The notes under the pieces: generated by a model
The model's input: the letters and a program-made list of their open reading frames with translations, nothing else
Databases searched by the model: none
What the model was told of the DNA's origin: nothing
Assembly (NCBI GenBank): GCA_015075105.1
Contig: JABTUZ010000001.1
Span: 62,001 to 126,000, forward strand
Origin: Leptospiraceae bacterium
Lineage (GTDB): Bacteria; Spirochaetota; Leptospiria; Leptospirales; Leptospiraceae
Direction: 5' to 3'
DNA length: 64,000 nt
In this document: piece after piece, positions 50,872 to 62,994 of the stretch
How the letters are laid out: each line of letters starts with the position of its first letter
Numbering within the stretch: position 1 is the first letter of the stretch
Translations under genes and position numbers: made by a program

Positions 50872-51312
50872 TTAAACGTAAAATTCTTTTCTAAATTTTT
50901 CGTTGTATAGCTTTTTATCAAACAAACATCTTTCTGGATACGTTGCATCTGCAACCATCCAGTTTCCGTTTATTTTTATTTCTGGATAAATATGATGAGG
51001 CCTTTCCATTTCTCCACAAACTACCGCCCGTGACGGAATATTTAAAATAATCGCTTTCGCTAAAATTGGAACAGTCTTATCGTCACAATCTCTAGCACCT
51101 GTCCAGTTTATATCCAATGTATATTTAGGACGACTTACCGTTTCCTTTCCAACAGGATCAGAAATATACGGGAGGCGACGAACATAATTGTAAAAAGCAA
51201 AAATTGTCATCCCGTAAAACGGAATCAAATCTATTGTGTAATCTTTTGCCAATCTCAAGACAGTTTCCACCGTCTGAATATAGTCTTTTAAAGGAACAGA
51301 GGAAATTTTCAT
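50872..51312 (-). CDS. Transglutaminase-like cysteine protease fold protein
   Basis: A 146-residue protein with the triad of the transglutaminase-like fold: C76 in GARDCDDKTV, H106 or H107 in PHHIYPEIKI, and D122 in WMVADATYP. No signal peptide. Short proteins with this layout occur in phages and mobile elements. The ATG overlaps the VapC-like stop by four bases, so it is joined to the toxin pair and could be a third component. Confidence 0.72.
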   Translation of the reverse strand: MKISSVPLKDYIQTVETVLRLAKDYTIDLIPFYGMTIFAFYNYVRRLPYISDPVGKETVSRPKYTLDINWTGARDCDDKTVPILAKAIILNIPSRAVVCGEMERPHHIYPEIKINGNWMVADATYPERCLFDKKLYNEKFRKEFYV

Positions 51313-51701
51313 GCAAAACCTACTTCTAATCCTTCAACATCTTCAAAACTTTTATCTTTTGTCAAAAGTTTTAAATTATTTGATTTAGCAAGTGCCGAAA
51401 TCCAAACATCATTTTCTTGTACTTTTAGCCCTTTACTTCTTAATTGATCTTTTATAATTCCATATTCATTCGCTGTTTCTTGGTCGAATGTTAAAAAATC
51501 TTTTCTAAGAAAGATTTCCATCTTTTTCAATTCAGATTCATACTTCTTTTTATTCCCATGTTTTCTAAAGAAATTATATATTCCAAAATATAATTCACCT
51601 ATTGCAATTATCGGTATGTAAACTTTTTTATTTTCATCAATGTCGGTTTCATTTCCCCGAAAAGCTTCTATGCAAATCGTTGTATCAAGTATCAAATCCA
51701 T
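51309..51701 (-). CDS. VapC-like PIN-domain toxin
   Basis: A 130-residue PIN ribonuclease. The acidic residues are visible as LILDTTICIEAF near the start, E in AIGELYFGIY, and D in NDVWISALAKSNNLKLLTKDKSF. VapC toxins cut tRNA or rRNA until held by their antitoxin. Its start lies inside the end of the antitoxin gene (overlap of about 17 bases), the normal arrangement. The frame is intact, so the pair may still work. Confidence 0.88.
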   Translation of the reverse strand: MDLILDTTICIEAFRGNETDIDENKKVYIPIIAIGELYFGIYNFFRKHGNKKKYESELKKMEIFLRKDFLTFDQETANEYGIIKDQLRSKGLKVQENDVWISALAKSNNLKLLTKDKSFEDVEGLEVGFA

Positions 51702-51942
51702 TCCATTTCTTTCCTTTCGCTTTATAAATTTCCCTCATGATTCCATTTAAAGTACTGTCGCTTACTGTTCCGGCAAATTCTTTCCGTAAATCTCCCCACC
51801 TATGAACAGATTTAGAAATGTCTTTCTTCTTTTTTTCTGGAGAAAGTTTTTTCACGAAAGAAAAAACCTTCTCCTTATCTTCTTCACTTAAGTTTTCAAT
51901 AAGACTTTTTATTTCTTCTTCATCCATTTTGTTTGACTCCAT
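51685..51942 (-). CDS. VapB-like antitoxin, DUF2281-type
   Basis: An 85-residue, highly charged protein: MDEEEIKSLIENLSEEDKEK followed by a basic segment and a C-terminal part ending KAKGKKWNGFD, which would wrap the toxin. A start 26 codons upstream is open and would add a hydrophobic stretch, but the ATG at 51940-51942 begins the natural protein. It has no clear DNA-binding domain that I can see. Confidence 0.72.
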   Translation of the reverse strand: MESNKMDEEEIKSLIENLSEEDKEKVFSFVKKLSPEKKKKDISKSVHRWGDLRKEFAGTVSDSTLNGIMREIYKAKGKKWNGFDT

Positions 51943-52277
51943 GATTAAATTATTATAAAACATACTCGAAAATATTGCAAAACTTATTTTTACAATGCTT
52001 AAAAAAATCTTTTTACCCACTTTTTAGACGGTTTTTTCCTGCTTTTTACCCACATAAGTAACACTTTTTGAAAAATTACGCCACATCAGCAAATATTTTC
52101 TTCGTGAATAAATTGAGTTTTTCTTGAAATTCTTTTCAAAAAGAATTTGATATTTTAATTTTTCTCGAACTTCTCACGGCAACCTTTCAAAAAGTTTTCG
52201 TGAGAATATTTTTCCATAGGTTGCCGAATAAAGCAAATAATCCGCACCAGGAACACTTTTGATTTATCTACATGCTT
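51943..52277. other. Gap between antitoxin and Rep remnant
   Basis: About 335 bases. Minus-strand pieces such as SHENFLKGCREKFEKN can be read but no start, stop and ribosome site fit together. It presumably holds the promoter of the toxin pair. No hairpin of note. Confidence 0.4.
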
Positions 52278-54656: not shown

Positions 54657-55844
54657 ATGACAAAGGGACAAAAAAAGGAAACATATACAGAGGAATTCAA
54701 AAGGATGCAGTAAATCATTTGATTTCATCCGGCAAATCAGCAAAAGAAATTGCTTCAATTTAGGAATAATGAAAAGATCTTTTCATTGGAGAAAGAATTG
54801 ACAATTCAAGAAAGGTGATATAATGAAAGAAAATCGATCCAAAGATATTGAAATCCAACAGCTTCAGTATGAATTGTCCGAAGCAAAAAGATGGAATGTG
54901 ATATCTAAAAAAAGGCTATGGCCGTTCTCTCAAACTACAGAAATAATAGTATTGGTGATAAATGAAAACCGTAAGGAATATACGGTAGAGAGAATGTAAG
55001 GATTTAGGAATACTTCATGCAGTAATATTACAAGAAGCGAAATTAATTCTTTCAAAAGAAAATTTCAAGATAAAAGCAACGAAAGATATTGAATATTTTG
55101 AAGAGAATGAAAAAGTTTATGGAGCGAGGAGAATTGTAAAAGAGCTACATCAACAGGAAAATTTTATAGGGAAAAGGAAGTAAAAAGACTCATTTAAGGA
55201 TGCATTAAATACAGGGTATTCAACCTGCAAGATTTCAAGTCACAACAACTGTAACGAATCAAAATCTCCCAGTCTCTCAAATCTCTGGGATCGAAATTTT
55301 TTGCATATGCACCAAATAAAGTTTGGTTTTGATATTACATATATCAAAATAAAAAATGGATTTTATTATTTGTGTGTAATCGTCGATTTATATTCCAGAA
55401 AAGTAGTTGGCTGGTCGTTGAAAACCATATGAAAAAGAACTTGTGATTGATATACCTAGAAGTGCCATCAGAAAAAGGAAGCCTGCTTCGGGATTAATTT
55501 GTTTATTTAGACAGACACAGGTTCTCAATATCAAAGCAATTGTTCCTGAAAATTTTATTCTGGAATGGTGGTTTGAATCCAGTCCAATGAGCCGCAAAGG
55601 AGATTGTTGGGATAATACAGTTGTTAGAATCTTTTTCAAGACAATCAAAACAGAATTGATTTATAGAAATAAATTTGAAAATTATGAAGAATTGAGAAAG
55701 ATGTTTTCAAATTATATTATTTACAATAGGAAAAGACTTCATTCTTTCATTGGCTATCAAAGCCTCCTTCAAAGTTTGAAGAAAATTTGTGGCAAAATCT
55801 CTCCACTAAAACGGGTACACCTCAAGGGGTTCTTGTGGCGTTAA
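54657..55844 (+). mobile_element. IS3-family transposase, decayed (orfA and orfB remnants)
   Basis: orfA begins at 54657: KKETYTEEFKRDAVNHLI and SSGKSAKEIAS, the helix-turn-helix of IS3 orfA, and stops after 38 codons. orfB pieces follow in several frames: [52 protein letters not shown] (the DDE core region), and in an open frame from 55443 SPMSRKGDCWDN and NYIIYNRKRLHSFIGYQS, with the last catalytic Glu position changed or shifted. Many frameshifts mean it is dead. A probable right end, ACGGGTACA, stops near 55819. I could not find a matching left end. Confidence 0.82.
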
Positions 55845-56359: not shown

Positions 56360-57067
56360 TCAGTAAATTTTTTCCATTAGATCTCCAAGTTGCCTCAAGG
56401 TTTCTAAATCTGGATCGTTATTTGAGGAAATTAAAAAAGTATTCCAACCTAATTTTCTTGGCGGAAAATAATCGAGTTCAGGCTTATCCCCCACGTAGAT
56501 TAAATTTTTCGGACTTACTTGTGCTAATTTCTCCCCCTCTATAAAAATTTTTTCAGAGGGCTTTTCGTAACCGAATTCAGAAGATATTACAATATGAGTA
56601 AAATATTTTAAGAGGTTCATATTTTTTAATAGGCTTCTCAGACGAATGTCCCAATTAGAAATAATTCCGAGTTGAATATTTTTTTTATCGCTAAATTCCT
56701 TGAGATTAAAAAAAGTTTCGTCAATTGCCCACGAGTTTGGATCGTTGAAGGTATTTACTATATCTAAATATACCTTTTCAGTCAGTTCTGTTTTTTCAAA
56801 AAACGATAAAAAATAACCAATGAGTTCTTTCCAAAAACCATCATTACCATATTTATGATTTGTGTATCTACATTGAAAATTTAGAGGAGCTTTTGAATTC
56901 ATGAATTTCCAGCTATCAAAAAAATATTTTTTTAGCAATTCTTTGTCGTAAGAGGCTTGGATTATGTTGTGAGATTTTAGAATATCGTAATAAATTTTTC
57001 CAGGGTTTGTTTTGATATGGATTAGAGTGTCTCCCACGTCTAAATAGATAAACTTTACTTTTTCCAT
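56360..57067 (-). CDS. HAD-superfamily hydrolase
   Basis: A 235-residue protein with HAD motif I (FIYLDVGDTLIHI), motif II (LGIISNWD), the lysine of motif III (FGYEKPSEKIF) and motif IV (LIYVGDKPELDYFPP). The cap is helical, as in haloacid dehalogenase or phosphoglycolate-phosphatase-like members. Its start lies inside the end of the thioredoxin-like gene, a 13-base overlap. Substrate unknown. Confidence 0.9.
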   Translation of the reverse strand: MEKVKFIYLDVGDTLIHIKTNPGKIYYDILKSHNIIQASYDKELLKKYFFDSWKFMNSKAPLNFQCRYTNHKYGNDGFWKELIGYFLSFFEKTELTEKVYLDIVNTFNDPNSWAIDETFFNLKEFSDKKNIQLGIISNWDIRLRSLLKNMNLLKYFTHIVISSEFGYEKPSEKIFIEGEKLAQVSPKNLIYVGDKPELDYFPPRKLGWNTFLISSNNDPDLETLRQLGDLMEKIY

Positions 57068-57519
57068 TTTTTAAAAAAATCTAATACCGTTATATCTTTT
57101 AGACCTCTTGAATTTGAAAACTCACCATTATTTGTTGATACAAGAATTTTTTCTTCAGATGATAAAATTACAATTGCAGGGATACCGGATTGAATCGGAT
57201 CTTCAAATTTTTTTGAAAATTCTAAATTCCGATCAAACTTTCCTACATCAACTTTGAGAATAAGGTAATTTGCGTTTAAATAGGAAAGATTTGGTTCACG
57301 AGTTAGTATATCATTGAAAACAGAACAATCCATACACCAATTAGCACCAAATTCGATCAGAATATTTTTATTTTCTGATTTGCTTCGATTCAATAAAATT
57401 TTATATTCCTTTTCTATGTTAAGATTTTCGTTAAACGGCAATTCTTTTTTTTCATATAATATGATTAGGGTTGAGATTATCAACAATGCTGCAATAAGAG
57501 GGATATGTTTTTTTATCAT
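57055..57519 (-). CDS. Membrane-anchored thioredoxin-like protein
   Basis: A 154-residue protein with an N-terminal membrane helix (residues 5-22) and a thioredoxin fold with the redox pair in FGANWCMDCSVF (CxxC = CMDC), as in DsbD-gamma or thioredoxin_7 domains, and the cis-proline region SGIPAIVIL. It would face the periplasm and reduce or exchange disulphides. It lies six bases after the stop of the giant repeat protein gene, so it may help that protein or its neighbour fold. Confidence 0.85.
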   Translation of the reverse strand: MIKKHIPLIAALLIISTLIILYEKKELPFNENLNIEKEYKILLNRSKSENKNILIEFGANWCMDCSVFNDILTREPNLSYLNANYLILKVDVGKFDRNLEFSKKFEDPIQSGIPAIVILSSEEKILVSTNNGEFSNSRGLKDITVLDFFKKWKK

Positions 57520-57525
57520 GATACA

Positions 57526-60500
57526 CTATAATTTGACTCCAAAAATTCGATTATAATTTTTCCCATTGGTTGTAGTATTAGAATACAAAAATTTAAAAAT
57601 TGAAAATTTAGAATAGTCTGTCTCTGTTTCAGTCTGGTACTCCCAAAGAATTCCCCATAGACTTCCTTTGGATTTATAGCCGCGCTCTTTGAGTCGCGTT
57701 TCATAATAAATCGAACCAAGAAGAATCGCTTTAGTTTCTTCTTCTTTTCGCTTATTGTAATTTCTATACCAAAAAACACCGAGTCCCCCTAATTGTAAAA
57801 GCCTGTCATTATTTTCAAATGAATAATATAACAATGGAGGAACAACTATTAAATTTTCTGTAGATGTTCTATCGTAATAAAGAAATGGAATGAGATTTAA
57901 TTTAATATGCTCTTCTCTCTCGTTTAAATATCTTAGCCATAAAAAATTAATATCATAGTATCCATCTGTGTCTCTTGACTCGTATCCTGCGAGTAGTCCA
58001 AACAACACTTTGAATTTTCTATAATTAGGAGCTGATTCAAAGTGAATTGTGCCAAGAAAGAATTTTAATTTCTGAGTATTTGTATTTCTCCAAGACTGAT
58101 GGTCTATTAAATATAAAAAATTCTGTCTTGAATATTCTTCTGAAGAGTAAATATAGAATCCAAAAAAAAATAGTCTTAAATCATTTTTTTCGTAGTCTTT
58201 TTTCCAGTCCATTAACCAGAATATATTGTAGTGCAAATCTGTATTGGATATACTTCTAAAAAATAATGGAACAATCGGAAAGAAAAATATATTAGAATAA
58301 TTCGATTTATCTTTATTGAAATACTTTTCTGAATAGTGAAACAATAGATTTGTAATTTGAAAAGTTTCCTTGTAATAATGATGCTTAATTGGTTTAATCA
58401 ATTCTTTCTCTTCTACTTTTTCGTAGAAGTAGTAGTTAATAGGAAAAATTGAGACTACACATTGAGTTGTGTCAGATGCGAAATCGGAGCTTGAGTTATA
58501 GCTATGGTAGTAGGGTAAAATCCATAGTAGATTTTTTTGCCATTTTTCTTTTTCAAAATTTCCATAGCTTTTTTCCTTATAGTAGAAAAAAGAATAATGC
58601 TCTTCTCTTTCACTAATTGAGCTACTTGAATAGTCATGAAAGAAAAAAGGAAATATCCATAAAGAGGTGTCTTCTTTTGAATCGCTTTGAATAGATTTTA
58701 AATAGTATAAAGGGGTTAGGGTAGTTGTGATTTTTTGTTTCATTGGAAACATTGTATCAACTTTGCTGTGGTAATACAATAATATCCAAAGAGCATTGTA
58801 TTTGCTATTTTCGTCTTTAGAGTGAATTTGATACATTTCATAATAAAATATCGGAGAAAGAGAAACTGTTTTTGATACATTGGTGTCTTCCGTCTTTTTG
58901 GTGTAAAAAATTGGAAAAAGCCACCATCTATTTTCATGAAAATTTATTTCTGTATGTTGAAGGATTGAAATTAGAGGGAGAAAACTTGGGAAGTGGATAC
59001 TCCATTTTTTAGAATCCTTGTCTTCTACTGAATTGTAATAATGTAGAAGGCTAAGAGATAATTTTTGCGTTGAATTATTGGTAGAAATTCTTTTATACCA
59101 ATAAAAAGGCAAGATTCTTGAGCCACCTGTATCGTCTGACGTATAAAAATTCGATATGGGCCAAAGAAAAGAATGTTCAGTGATTTTTGTTTTTTCATTG
59201 AACTCGCGTATATAACCTATTGCCAAAAAAGATTCCGTAAACGAGTTTCCATTTCTTTGCTTTGCGTATAATGGAATTATCAATGGAGCAATGACTTTAT
59301 ATTCCACTTCATCAGAAACATACCATAGGTTGAATAAAGGAAGAAAAAAAACTTTATTGTCAGATTCTTTGTCCCACGAGAACCATCCTAAGGGTAAAAC
59401 ACGAATATGTCTTTTTGTATCTGCTTTTTCATAAGCTGCAATCCCAAACAAGGCACTCCATCCCCAAAAGTTTTCCGACTTTTCTTTAGAAATAGATTTT
59501 TCTTTCTCTATTTTTGGTTGATTTTCATTATCTTTTGGAGAGTTCGCTATTAGGCTAACTGGTAAATATGGAAGTGAGCTATTTCCTTTTTTTTGTTTTG
59601 GAAAATATTCAGATTTGAATGATTTTCTTGTAGAAAAACTAAACAAGTTGTAAAATGCAATTATTTCAAAATCAAAATATGTCTTATCGAAGTTTCGACC
59701 TACTGAAGCATTTGCGTATAACGTCCCAAATTGTCTTGCTATTGAAAAACCGGCAATATTTAGGTGAAGGCTGTTGTTATCTTCTTTGTAATTTAGATAA
59801 AAGGGTAAGAAAATATTTCCTTCAGTTTTAGAATTTTTCCATACATACAATAATGGAAAGATTGTATAAAAGCTTGTCTTATTCCGAAAATTTTCATGCG
59901 AATAATACAATAACATCCATATTTTTTCGATTTGTTCCGATTTTTTAAAATAATGAAATGGGCTAACTGAAACTTGAACCTTGTCTTCTTTATTTTCATG
60001 CTTATGAAAAAATGGAAAAACCGTAAAAGAAGAATTACCAGTTTTTGAATTTGAATAATTATGATAAAAGAGAACCCACTGAATTTGCAAATCTCTGGAA
60101 GATTTTAGATAATAAAAAGGGCCAAAATATGTTTTTTCTTCTGTGTCTTCGGGATTACCCCAAGATGAATAATAAAATGGTAGAAATGCAAAATGAGAGT
60201 TTCTTTTGTAATAGATAAAAGGAAAAATATTTAAAGTGAATTCGTCTGTCTTTGAGTCTTTAGACCAATAGAAATTTGCGATCAGATTTGATGATTTTGT
60301 TCCAAATTCATGATGGTAAAATATTGGACCAAAAAAAGTTTTTTCAAATTTATTTCCATAAGAAAAATAAAAAAACAGAACACTATGGTAATAGCTTTCA
60401 TCGTTTGTATTCCAAGTGTTAAAAATAAATAGAGGAGGAATGTGCAAAAAACCATTTTCGGATTTGTCCCAGAAGAAAAATGGTAGAGCGTATAAGCTTC

Positions 60501-61206
60501 TTAATGTCCCCGCTCTTGTCGTTTTACCAAACAGCCACAAGATATTTGTATGGGTATAGTCTGGTTCTGAATGGTGGTAAAAAATCGGAATGATTGGAAA
60601 AAATCTTGTTGAAGACACAAAATCATTTTTACTATTTTCTAAAAAAAAATGAAATGGAGAGAAATTCAATTTAGTATAAGCCACGGTATTTGAATTCAGT
60701 TCATACCGAATTTTTTTTGAGAAATAAATTGGAGATAAAAATATTGTGCTTTTGCGATCTGGCTTACTGTCGTCACTACTATTGTAAAAAAAAGGAAATA
60801 TTCCGATTGATTCAGATGTATTTTGTTTATCATAGTAATAATAGACAAAGGGGAAAAAAAATCTTTCTATTTCGGAATTTTTTTGTTTATAAAAGAAATT
60901 GAAAATTCTAAATTTCTTTCGATTGTCTATCTTGCTTTCTAAAAAATTATAAAATGGGAAAAAATATGTTGAACGATATTTTGGATAATTTGTATGTTTG
61001 TAAAGCCAAAGTACTTGGTTGGAATAGTGATTTTCCCAGTTTTCTCTTTCCCAAAAATGTGCATTGATGTCGTACTTTGCCTCCTTCTCACTACCGTAGA
61101 TCTTTTTTGTTCCTTCGTTTAAATCATCCCAATTATCATTGGAAAAAATTGAAGTAGATAGAAGAATTGCAAAGACGAAAAAAGCAGGTGCTTTCAAAAA
61201 ACTCAT
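57526..61206 (-). CDS. Giant exported aromatic-repeat protein
   Basis: A 1226-residue protein with a signal peptide (cut near IFS-NDNW). Almost all of the mature part is made of degenerate repeats, each about 25-40 residues, centred on aromatic blocks such as IFPFFY, FGPFYY, LSPIFYY, WILLYYHS, LTPLYYL and WIFPFFF. I count more than thirty. Blocks are separated by polar, Lys/Asp/Ser/Asn-rich turns. About residues 500-600 hold a Lys/Ser-rich non-repeat region. The pattern of alternating strands with girdles of Tyr, Phe and Trp suggests an outer-membrane beta barrel or a membrane-attached beta structure, but I know no close family. The thioredoxin-like gene follows. Confidence 0.75.
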   Translation of the reverse strand: MSFLKAPAFFVFAILLSTSIFSNDNWDDLNEGTKKIYGSEKEAKYDINAHFWERENWENHYSNQVLWLYKHTNYPKYRSTYFFPFYNFLESKIDNRKKFRIFNFFYKQKNSEIERFFFPFVYYYYDKQNTSESIGIFPFFYNSSDDSKPDRKSTIFLSPIYFSKKIRYELNSNTVAYTKLNFSPFHFFLENSKNDFVSSTRFFPIIPIFYHHSEPDYTHTNILWLFGKTTRAGTLRSLYALPFFFWDKSENGFLHIPPLFIFNTWNTNDESYYHSVLFFYFSYGNKFEKTFFGPIFYHHEFGTKSSNLIANFYWSKDSKTDEFTLNIFPFIYYKRNSHFAFLPFYYSSWGNPEDTEEKTYFGPFYYLKSSRDLQIQWVLFYHNYSNSKTGNSSFTVFPFFHKHENKEDKVQVSVSPFHYFKKSEQIEKIWMLLYYSHENFRNKTSFYTIFPLLYVWKNSKTEGNIFLPFYLNYKEDNNSLHLNIAGFSIARQFGTLYANASVGRNFDKTYFDFEIIAFYNLFSFSTRKSFKSEYFPKQKKGNSSLPYLPVSLIANSPKDNENQPKIEKEKSISKEKSENFWGWSALFGIAAYEKADTKRHIRVLPLGWFSWDKESDNKVFFLPLFNLWYVSDEVEYKVIAPLIIPLYAKQRNGNSFTESFLAIGYIREFNEKTKITEHSFLWPISNFYTSDDTGGSRILPFYWYKRISTNNSTQKLSLSLLHYYNSVEDKDSKKWSIHFPSFLPLISILQHTEINFHENRWWLFPIFYTKKTEDTNVSKTVSLSPIFYYEMYQIHSKDENSKYNALWILLYYHSKVDTMFPMKQKITTTLTPLYYLKSIQSDSKEDTSLWIFPFFFHDYSSSSISEREEHYSFFYYKEKSYGNFEKEKWQKNLLWILPYYHSYNSSSDFASDTTQCVVSIFPINYYFYEKVEEKELIKPIKHHYYKETFQITNLLFHYSEKYFNKDKSNYSNIFFFPIVPLFFRSISNTDLHYNIFWLMDWKKDYEKNDLRLFFFGFYIYSSEEYSRQNFLYLIDHQSWRNTNTQKLKFFLGTIHFESAPNYRKFKVLFGLLAGYESRDTDGYYDINFLWLRYLNEREEHIKLNLIPFLYYDRTSTENLIVVPPLLYYSFENNDRLLQLGGLGVFWYRNYNKRKEEETKAILLGSIYYETRLKERGYKSKGSLWGILWEYQTETETDYSKFSIFKFLYSNTTTNGKNYNRIFGVKL

Positions 61207-61314: not shown

Positions 61315-61347
61315 ATTTAAAAAAAGAAACCCTGAAATATTCAGGGT
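61315..61347 (-). terminator. Rho-independent terminator of the caspase gene
   Basis: ACCCTGAA at 61329-61336 and TTCAGGGT at 61340-61347 form a perfect eight-pair stem with a three-base loop. On the minus strand it is followed by TTTCTTTTTTT. It lies 22 bases after the caspase stop. Confidence 0.85.
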
Positions 61348-61368
61348 CTTGCTGATACTTTATTTACA

Positions 61369-62994
61369 TCAGTATTTTGTTTTTGTACTGGGCATTCTCT
61401 GATTTAAAATAATTTGAACTCTTGTTACTTCTCCCTCGTTTACATTTAGCATGGAATTTTCTAATTTCATTTCTTCTGCAAAGGAAGCACGGATTTCATA
61501 GTCACCGGGTTTTAAATTGGTAAACCAGAAATTCCCATCTTTATCAGTGAATGTTTTTTGAATCCCGTTTACACTTTTAATTGTAGGCATATAAATCGGT
61601 TGCTTGATCACAGGATTATCCAAAGTTTTGTAAAATACATTTCCTTGAATTGCACCGTACCCAGACATAGAAGCAATTACTTCTATCTCATTTTGTTTGT
61701 TTGGTTGGATCCCTACAGTGGACTGGATCTCCGGGTATTCGTCGGCTTTGATTACAATCTTTTGAACTCCTGCAGGAATTTTTTTTAGGTGGATGTTGTA
61801 AATTTCTCCTGGAGTAGTTATTCCAACTCTTCTCATGGATCCAAAAAATTCAGACTTAACCGTACTTAATTTGTAGTCGTATTCCTTATCGTTTAGATAT
61901 ACTTTTATCCTTCTGTCGCCTTTTCTTGTTCTTTTTGCTTGAATCAGCTCAGCAGGAGGTAGATCAGACAGACCGTAAGTTCTATCTTTGATAATGGTAG
62001 TTTTTATTAATAGGTCTGCAAATTTTGCAGGTGGAGAGACAGGCTCTACATTCGTAACAGGTGGACGAATGGGATCCGGTTTTGGAGGATCGCTCACCGG
62101 TTCTGGTTTTGGAGTAGGGATAACTTCAGGAATTGGAGGTGTCGGAGGCGGCTCGGGTGTTTTCTTCCCTGCTAATAAAATTCCTGATGCGTCACCCGAC
62201 ACCTGTGGAGTTTGTTCATGATCATTTTCTTTAGCCATTTTTACTACATTGTCTCGAGTTTGAAAAAAGGCTTCTAAGGCTGTAACTACCTTGTCTCCAT
62301 TCAAGTCGGCAGTCTCTAACGCCTTTCCAAAATGATAAGTAAATATTCCGTGATTGATATCTCCACCCAATTCCATAGAAGTTTGATTATCGTCTGAAGA
62401 TGCTATGATTCCCTTATTTTGAAAAAAGAAGTCTTCTGAATTTTGTTTCACTACTCCATCATTTCCTGCGGGGATCGGGACTTCTCCTGCACCTCTGGTC
62501 TTCTTGCCCTTTTTTGCAATTCCACCCGAGAAGCAACAGTCAAAAACAAAAAGAGTTTTTGGAGATGTTATGGATTTTAAGTATTCATTTAATTCTTCAT
62601 CGGATAGATGAGGTCTTTCAAAGCAGACTAATACATTTCTCATCCCGTTTTTGGCGTTTGGATCTCTTTGGAAAGTTCCGTGCCCTGCAAAAAACAAGAA
62701 TACAGTGTCATCTTTTCCGGCTTTATTTCCAAGGCTTTTAATTTCTTTTTCGATATTTTTTTTAGTAATTTGAGAGCCCAGAAGTACTTTTACTTCGTCA
62801 AAATTCCCAACTTTTTTAATTTGATTGGTTAGATAATTCGCGTCGGACTCGCACATCAAAAGCTCAGGAATATTGGCTTTGTTCTTTGTGTAATTTGTGC
62901 CAAAAATCAATCCATACCTTTTCTGGCTGAAAATTTCTGAAGAAAAAAGTAGAAAAGTCAAAGTTATCGTTATAAACCCAAGTTTTTTCTGCAT
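61369..62994 (-). CDS. Exported caspase-family (C14) protease with proline-rich linker and CarboxypepD_reg-like tail
   Basis: A signal peptide (residues 1-23, cut near IFS-QKRY) precedes a caspase p20-like domain: H105 in FFAGHGTF and the cysteine in [10 protein letters not shown] (C154 the likely nucleophile). [15 protein letters not shown] looks like an EF-hand-type calcium loop. A proline-rich linker (about 285-325) leads to a beta-rich domain and a C-terminal carboxypeptidase-regulatory-like domain ([31 protein letters not shown]). The start has AGGAG upstream. It stands alone with its own terminator. It should act in the periplasm or at the surface. Confidence 0.88.

Follow-up and report, generated by a model that had tools for sequence, protein, structure and literature searches.

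A 1226-residue repeat protein of a Leptospiraceae bacterium, distantly related to a shorter paralogue encoded in Mla operons of Spirochaetota

What kind of protein is encoded by a gene whose 1226-residue product is built almost throughout from aromatic-rich repeats, and what might it do in the spirochaetal envelope? The window, i.e. the whole 64,000-nucleotide stretch of Leptospiraceae DNA that was analysed, contains an intact open reading frame (ORF) at exactly 57526–61206; the ORF listing and its translation confirm both its extent and its product length as given in the earlier sequence-only reading, and place it on the minus strand (Table 1). The export proposed there is likewise supported, since the N-terminus MSFLKAPAFFVFAILLSTSIFS reads by inspection as a Sec signal peptide without a lipobox. 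In several homologues, an AxA-type cleavage site lies directly before a conserved DWxDL motif. Aromatic residues (F/W/Y) account for 22% of the protein.

Table 1 Features of the 1226-residue protein gene and its surroundings (window coordinates; aa, residues of the protein).
Feature	Position	Strand	Basis
Thioredoxin-fold protein with CMDC motif, directly downstream	57055..57519	-	Pfam Thioredoxin_7, E 3e-10
CDS, LA_1737-family beta-repeat protein, 1226 aa	57526..61206	-	ORF, translation, NF047486 E 4.3e-45
C-terminal strand YNRIFGVKL, outer-membrane beta-signal-like, hydrophobic at -1/-3/-5	57529..57555	-	Family pattern
LA_1737 C-terminal domain (NF047486), aa 1071-1225	57532..57996	-	NCBIfam match
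C-terminal repeat half, aa 576-1226, related to the short Mla-operon paralogue	57529..59481	-	hhalign, HMM controls
Most conserved core, aa 576-735	59002..59481	-	Alignment, structure models
Polar linker between the two halves, aa 526-575	59482..59631	-	Gap analysis and alignment
N-terminal repeat half, aa 80-525, ~25 hydrophobic blocks, spacing 17-20 aa, many with a central Pro	59632..60969	-	
Family-specific N-terminal motif, aa 26-97: WDDL..G..KIYGSEKE....W..HYS...LW.YK.T.YPKY.S....PFY...SKIDNR	60916..61131	-	Invariant or near-invariant positions, 16-protein alignment
Putative signal peptide, aa 1-22, without lipobox Cys	61141..61206	-	Sequence inspection
Terminator-like hairpin (CCCTGAATATTTCAGGG + T-run) after the upstream caspase-like gene	61318..61348	-	Sequence read

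The repeats themselves are real, and their number had been underestimated by half: instead of "more than thirty", we counted 61 hydrophobic blocks, or ~60 strands once the leading block, the signal peptide, is set aside. Their median spacing is 18.5 residues, not the 25–40 suggested before. The strand periodicity analysis proposed as a check revealed a strong period, with a spectral power in the 16–22-residue band of 112.6 compared to 21.0 ± 4.4 in 2000 shuffles (maximum 41.9). Autocorrelation peaks at 19, 36, and 56, together with the 18.5-residue spacing, indicate that the wider spacing mixes one and two repeats. The ~18.5-residue period is kept in members from 460 to 2333 residues, across both the family of this protein and the shorter paralogue described below.

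Contrary to the impression that no known family fits, the protein matches NCBIfam NF047486, the LA_1737 family, over the full model (1–158 of 158) with 153.5 bits against a cut-off of 60 (E 4e-45). This family is catalogued and uncharacterised. Profile searches of Pfam, PHROG, PADLOC, and PDB found no relative of the 1226-residue protein, our searches of plasmid and viral collections yielded no relatives either, and a literature search on LA_1737 found no paper about the family; as far as these tools show, it is undescribed though catalogued. The NF047486 entry names only the C-terminal domain and is silent on the repeat, the Spirochaetota-wide range, the range of lengths, and the paralogue, whereas the window protein shares with the family its C-terminal 158-residue domain, signal peptide, N-terminal motif, and repeat.

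Among 296 sampled Spirochaetota genomes, 49 contain the LA_1737 family; the named matches are metagenome-assembled genomes of Leptospiraceae, Leptospirales, and other Spirochaetota, and the window's genome has one copy. The extracted proteins range from 648 to 2333 residues, some being cut by contig ends or having uncertain starts, and all have a median block spacing of ~17.5–20.5 residues. Complete-looking members start with a signal peptide and a ..DW.DL.EGE..VYGSEKEEKY.. motif and share a conserved C-terminal domain, while gap analysis and alignment place a polar linker at a comparable mid-protein site in most. A 16-protein alignment shows ~30% identity and invariant motif residues, with the window protein sharing both N-terminal motif and repeat. 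At one locus (L060, G017:C18 about 28–39 kb), two LA_1737 genes of 2026 and ~1480 residues lie in tandem in one genome, the second with an in-frame TGA within the matches near its C-terminus.

The genes surrounding the 1226-residue gene are of little help in assigning a role. The thioredoxin-like gene noticed earlier does follow directly, after a gap of 6 bp, and this thioredoxin-fold gene and a HAD gene downstream probably share a transcript with the 1226-residue gene, which probably starts its own transcript given the terminator-like hairpin after the caspase-like gene. As a functional clue, the thioredoxin link is not supported, since no homologue lies beside other LA_1737 members; an operon clue from the thioredoxin, HAD, and caspase neighbours was rejected for the same reason, none of them recurring there. 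The directly upstream gene (61369–62994, minus strand) encodes a caspase-domain (Peptidase C14) protein with a C-terminal carboxypeptidase-regulatory-like domain. Elsewhere in the window, the 49–56 kb region is gene-poor by ORF listing. Two adjacent small genes at 51309–52020 (minus strand), one with a 130-residue product that reads like a PIN-domain toxin, may form a toxin-antitoxin pair, and the translation of 55443–55844 (plus strand) resembles the C-terminal part of an IS3-type transposase.

Searching with a profile of the LA_1737 family revealed a second group of shorter proteins. A profile of this group had matches in 65 of the 296 Spirochaetota genomes, a few of which were only weak matches to the long family, and 63 of 393 passed E 1e-20, including the copy in the window's genome (G000:C2:429353-430729). 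The 44 short proteins fetched with their gene neighbourhoods comprise 464–641 residues (~460–640) and 24–32 blocks. Neither Pfam nor NCBIfam gave a match in the two members scanned, and a four-member profile found none in PDB. Both families are nevertheless related: hhalign aligned short and long family with a probability of 98.5 (E 2e-15; A1 columns 569–1019), and the short-family HMM detected, at E<1e-3, 39 of 42 long proteins versus 1 of 42 reversed and 4 of 42 block-shuffled copies, with the window protein at E 3.4e-8. The 1226-residue protein is thus a distant, enlarged paralogue of the short protein; because both families are repetitive, this support is firmer for a shared repeat architecture than for position-by-position homology.

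It is the genomic setting of the short paralogue that points to lipid transport. In 35 of the 44 loci, an MlaE permease gene starts at most 200 bp downstream on the same strand; 32 loci also have an MlaF-like ATPase homologue downstream, and 27 have an MCE/MlaD protein there, with some loci being cut by contig ends. In representative loci, Pfam confirmed the MlaE, ABC_tran, and MlaD identities. Neither the short paralogue nor its link to Mla appeared in the annotation libraries or papers that we searched; to that extent, both are new. Upstream, on the opposite strand, 21 loci (L171-L189) have a divergent gene, one representative of which matches FlaA (Pfam E 7e-13), the flagellar outer-layer protein. 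In the window's genome, MlaE is encoded by a single gene, which lies next to that of the short paralogue. We did not find MlaA in this genome; an MlaC-like gene (G000:C1:467104-467508) and two MCE genes (G000:C1:1891675 and G000:C2:58638) lie away from the MlaE/short-paralogue pair. MlaE occurred in 193 genomes versus 65 for the short family, so the short protein is not a universal partner and would serve some spirochaetal Mla systems but not all. For the long family, we found no MlaE or MlaD in the locus neighbourhoods examined, although an ABC ATPase matching the MlaF profile was present in four of them. The window gene itself has no Mla genes nearby, and none that recur beside other long members; its product gave no Pfam match to MlaA, MlaC, MlaD, MlaE, or MlaF domains.

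These observations can be placed beside what has been described for other diderms. The ancestral spirochaete is inferred to have had mlaDEF (PMC12236494), and in diderms without MlaA and MlaC, MlaD may itself reach the outer membrane via a fused barrel, as in Veillonella, whose MlaD has a C-terminal outer-membrane barrel (PMC10665443). The short paralogue resembles this arrangement in being encoded with MlaE, MlaF, and MlaD and in looking outer-membrane-targeted, and the window's genome resembles MlaA-less diderms in that MlaA was not found there. The short paralogue differs in being a separate protein with a different, larger strand number and no Pfam match to MlaA, MlaC, or MlaD, and the window gene differs in being unlinked to Mla genes.

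When the blocks are aligned on their central proline, positions -2, -1, +1, and +2 are hydrophobic in 76–94% of cases in both families, position +3 in 75% (long) and 45% (short), and polar residues dominate more than ~6 residues to either side in both. On the face opposite the better hydrophobic face, the hydrophobic fraction is 0.41–0.46 in the long and short families; the same measure in E. coli K-12 gives 0.20 for LptD, 0.12 for FadL, 0.15 for OmpC, 0.19 for FhuA, and 0.12 for TamB. The in/out strand alternation of an ordinary outer-membrane barrel is therefore absent (0.46 versus 0.12–0.20 in the four E. coli barrels). Hydrophobicity on both faces argues against a water-filled ordinary barrel, a TamB-like groove, and a soluble single-layer sheet, and favours lipid or protein on both sides of the strands. 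Of the beta strands with aromatic girdles envisaged at the outset, the strands, polar turns, and Tyr-rich strand ends hold up and the spacing does not.

Hydrophobic C-termini are expected for outer-membrane proteins inserted by BAM. In the short family, 57 of 60 proteins end in F, I, or L (F in 35 of these), and terminal F occurs in 11% of neighbouring ORFs. Long-family C-termini are hydrophobic at -1, -3, and -5 in 74–76% and at -2 and -4 in 24–29%, with 26% of members ending in a non-hydrophobic residue. The window protein ends in L, not F; the beta-signal-like pattern is one seen at the family level.

Structure prediction, also proposed as a check, returned an all-beta meander, as anticipated, with low global confidence in both AlphaFold models and hence no confident global fold. 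The mature protein modelled with 15 homologues reached a pLDDT of 41 and a pTM of 0.33, and the C-terminal half of a homologue (L076) with 20 other rows a mean pLDDT of 68.6 and a pTM of 0.38. Its best-predicted part (model residues 51–160, pLDDT 79–93) maps to the conserved core of the window protein. In this second model, the strands are separated alternately by polar turns (NG, DG, SPD) and by hydrophobic breaks (LPL, FPL, LWPI). A two- or three-residue PL/LPL turn without Gly or Asn is stereochemically awkward, which leads us to read the central proline, tentatively, as a kink in a continuous strand and not as a hairpin. Covariation among 60 short-family sequences points to antiparallel pairs of strands on either side of a polar turn (a-b 0/-1: mean z 0.46–0.64). 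Correlating the properties of adjacent blocks gave noise. Searched against PDB and BFVD, Foldseek gave no global match and no barrel match at E<0.001; what it returned were generic meanders, propellers, and phage tail proteins, all with a query TM of at most 0.21. Together with the PDB profile search, this supports the earlier idea of a new fold to the extent that solved structures offered no match. A reading as known MORN, YD, or WG repeats was rejected, given the same TM ceiling and the absence of any Pfam repeat-profile match.

How, then, might such a protein be accommodated in the envelope? We tentatively favour, with somewhat less than even confidence, an outer-membrane or envelope lipid-handling beta sheet or barrel, of which the short form works with MlaE, MlaF, and MlaD and the long form is a larger relative. 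The window protein would be an outer-membrane-destined all-beta meander of ~60 strands of ~15 residues, each with a 9-residue core hydrophobic on both faces and usually kinked by a central proline, with short polar turns in between. The short protein, with 24–32 strands, is the product of the first gene in a spirochaetal Mla (MCE) phospholipid-transport operon. It may be the partner of the MlaE/MlaF/MlaD pump in the envelope or outer membrane, where it would form a lipid-lined sheet or barrel for the uptake or delivery of phospholipid; the larger window protein might have a related part in handling lipids or structuring the membrane. This proposal draws on the constant 18.5-residue period, the HMM and hhalign relation between the families, the Mla linkage of the short one, the position of the only MlaE gene in the window's genome, where no MlaA was found, the hydrophobic C-termini, the two-faced strands, the predicted all-beta meander, mlaDEF ancestry (PMC12236494), and the MlaD-barrel precedent (PMC10665443). 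Weighing against it are the lack of linkage of the window gene to any transport gene, the frequent occurrence of MlaE without the short family, the one MlaC-like gene, the low global model confidence, the missing Foldseek barrel match, and the long members with a non-hydrophobic end. Strand number is a further difficulty, as a single barrel of up to ~116 strands would, to our knowledge, be unprecedented. A bolder version would unite both families as a novel type of lipid-handling beta-protein in the envelope: a meander of ~26 to ~116 strands, embedded in the membrane, with two hydrophobic faces and a proline-kinked mid-plane. The short form would then be the unrecognised outer-membrane end of Mla in Leptospirales and other Spirochaetota, and the long form would make up a very large assembly filled with lipid; this version we regard as doubtful.

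The signal peptide, the C-terminal hydrophobic pattern, antiparallel strands of suitable length with Tyr-rich ends, and the 24–32 strands of the short paralogue would equally suit a giant but otherwise ordinary outer-membrane beta-barrel of ~26–60 strands, such as a porin, export channel, or surface receptor, whose kinship with the Mla-linked protein reflects shared barrel ancestry only. We consider this unlikely, since such barrels alternate hydrophobic and polar faces where both are hydrophobic here, the turns on either side are short and no large surface loop is apparent, and Foldseek found no barrel at E<0.001. A very large barrel, as first imagined, is still a candidate: the C-termini look outer-membrane-like, but the strands lack the alternation of an ordinary barrel, and neither model was globally confident (pTM 0.33 and 0.38). 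LptD, a 26-strand outer-membrane barrel, comes near the short paralogue in strand number and lipid-transport setting and has proline in some strands, as do the repeat blocks; it gave no sequence or profile match, and its strands have one polar face. The better local Foldseek matches, to axonemal central-apparatus chains, teneurin, and OspA 2fkj, were antiparallel meanders forming a single layer or a shell. They would fit a structural, adhesive, or scaffold meander or solenoid in the periplasm or at the surface, outside the membrane. MORN repeats, the OspA sheet, and teneurin YD shells are indeed long antiparallel meanders of short strands, but they are soluble, have other repeat sequences, and match weakly (TM-scores below 0.2; the top matches overall reach at most 0.21, at 5–11% identity). 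With no Pfam repeat match, and given that a soluble sheet should not be 75–94% hydrophobic at consecutive positions, we hold this placement to be quite unlikely; the solenoid suggested earlier would, if soluble, be less likely because both faces are hydrophobic at mid-strand. A constant repeat with variable length, fitting a variable span, and the lipid-transport linkage of the paralogue also recall bridge-like lipid-transfer proteins of the TamB/AsmA/VPS13 type, long and variable all-beta envelope proteins with a groove across the periplasm. Such a bridge is improbable here: TamB/AsmA strands are amphipathic with a polar outer face, those proteins have an N-terminal membrane anchor where the homologues seem to have a cleavable signal peptide, and there was no sequence match, nor a TamB/AsmA Pfam match at E<1.

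The wider question is how phospholipids travel to and from the spirochaete outer membrane; the search of the window's genome turned up no MlaA. The short paralogue, as a conserved, operon-linked beta-protein, offers a concrete candidate for the missing part, and a stand-alone beta-protein would solve lipid delivery without MlaA and MlaC in a second way, beside MlaD with a fused barrel. The long form has been known only as an NCBIfam name, and its strand chemistry departs from that of the E. coli outer-membrane barrels compared. The family may thus represent a missing part of lipid movement to the spirochaete outer membrane.
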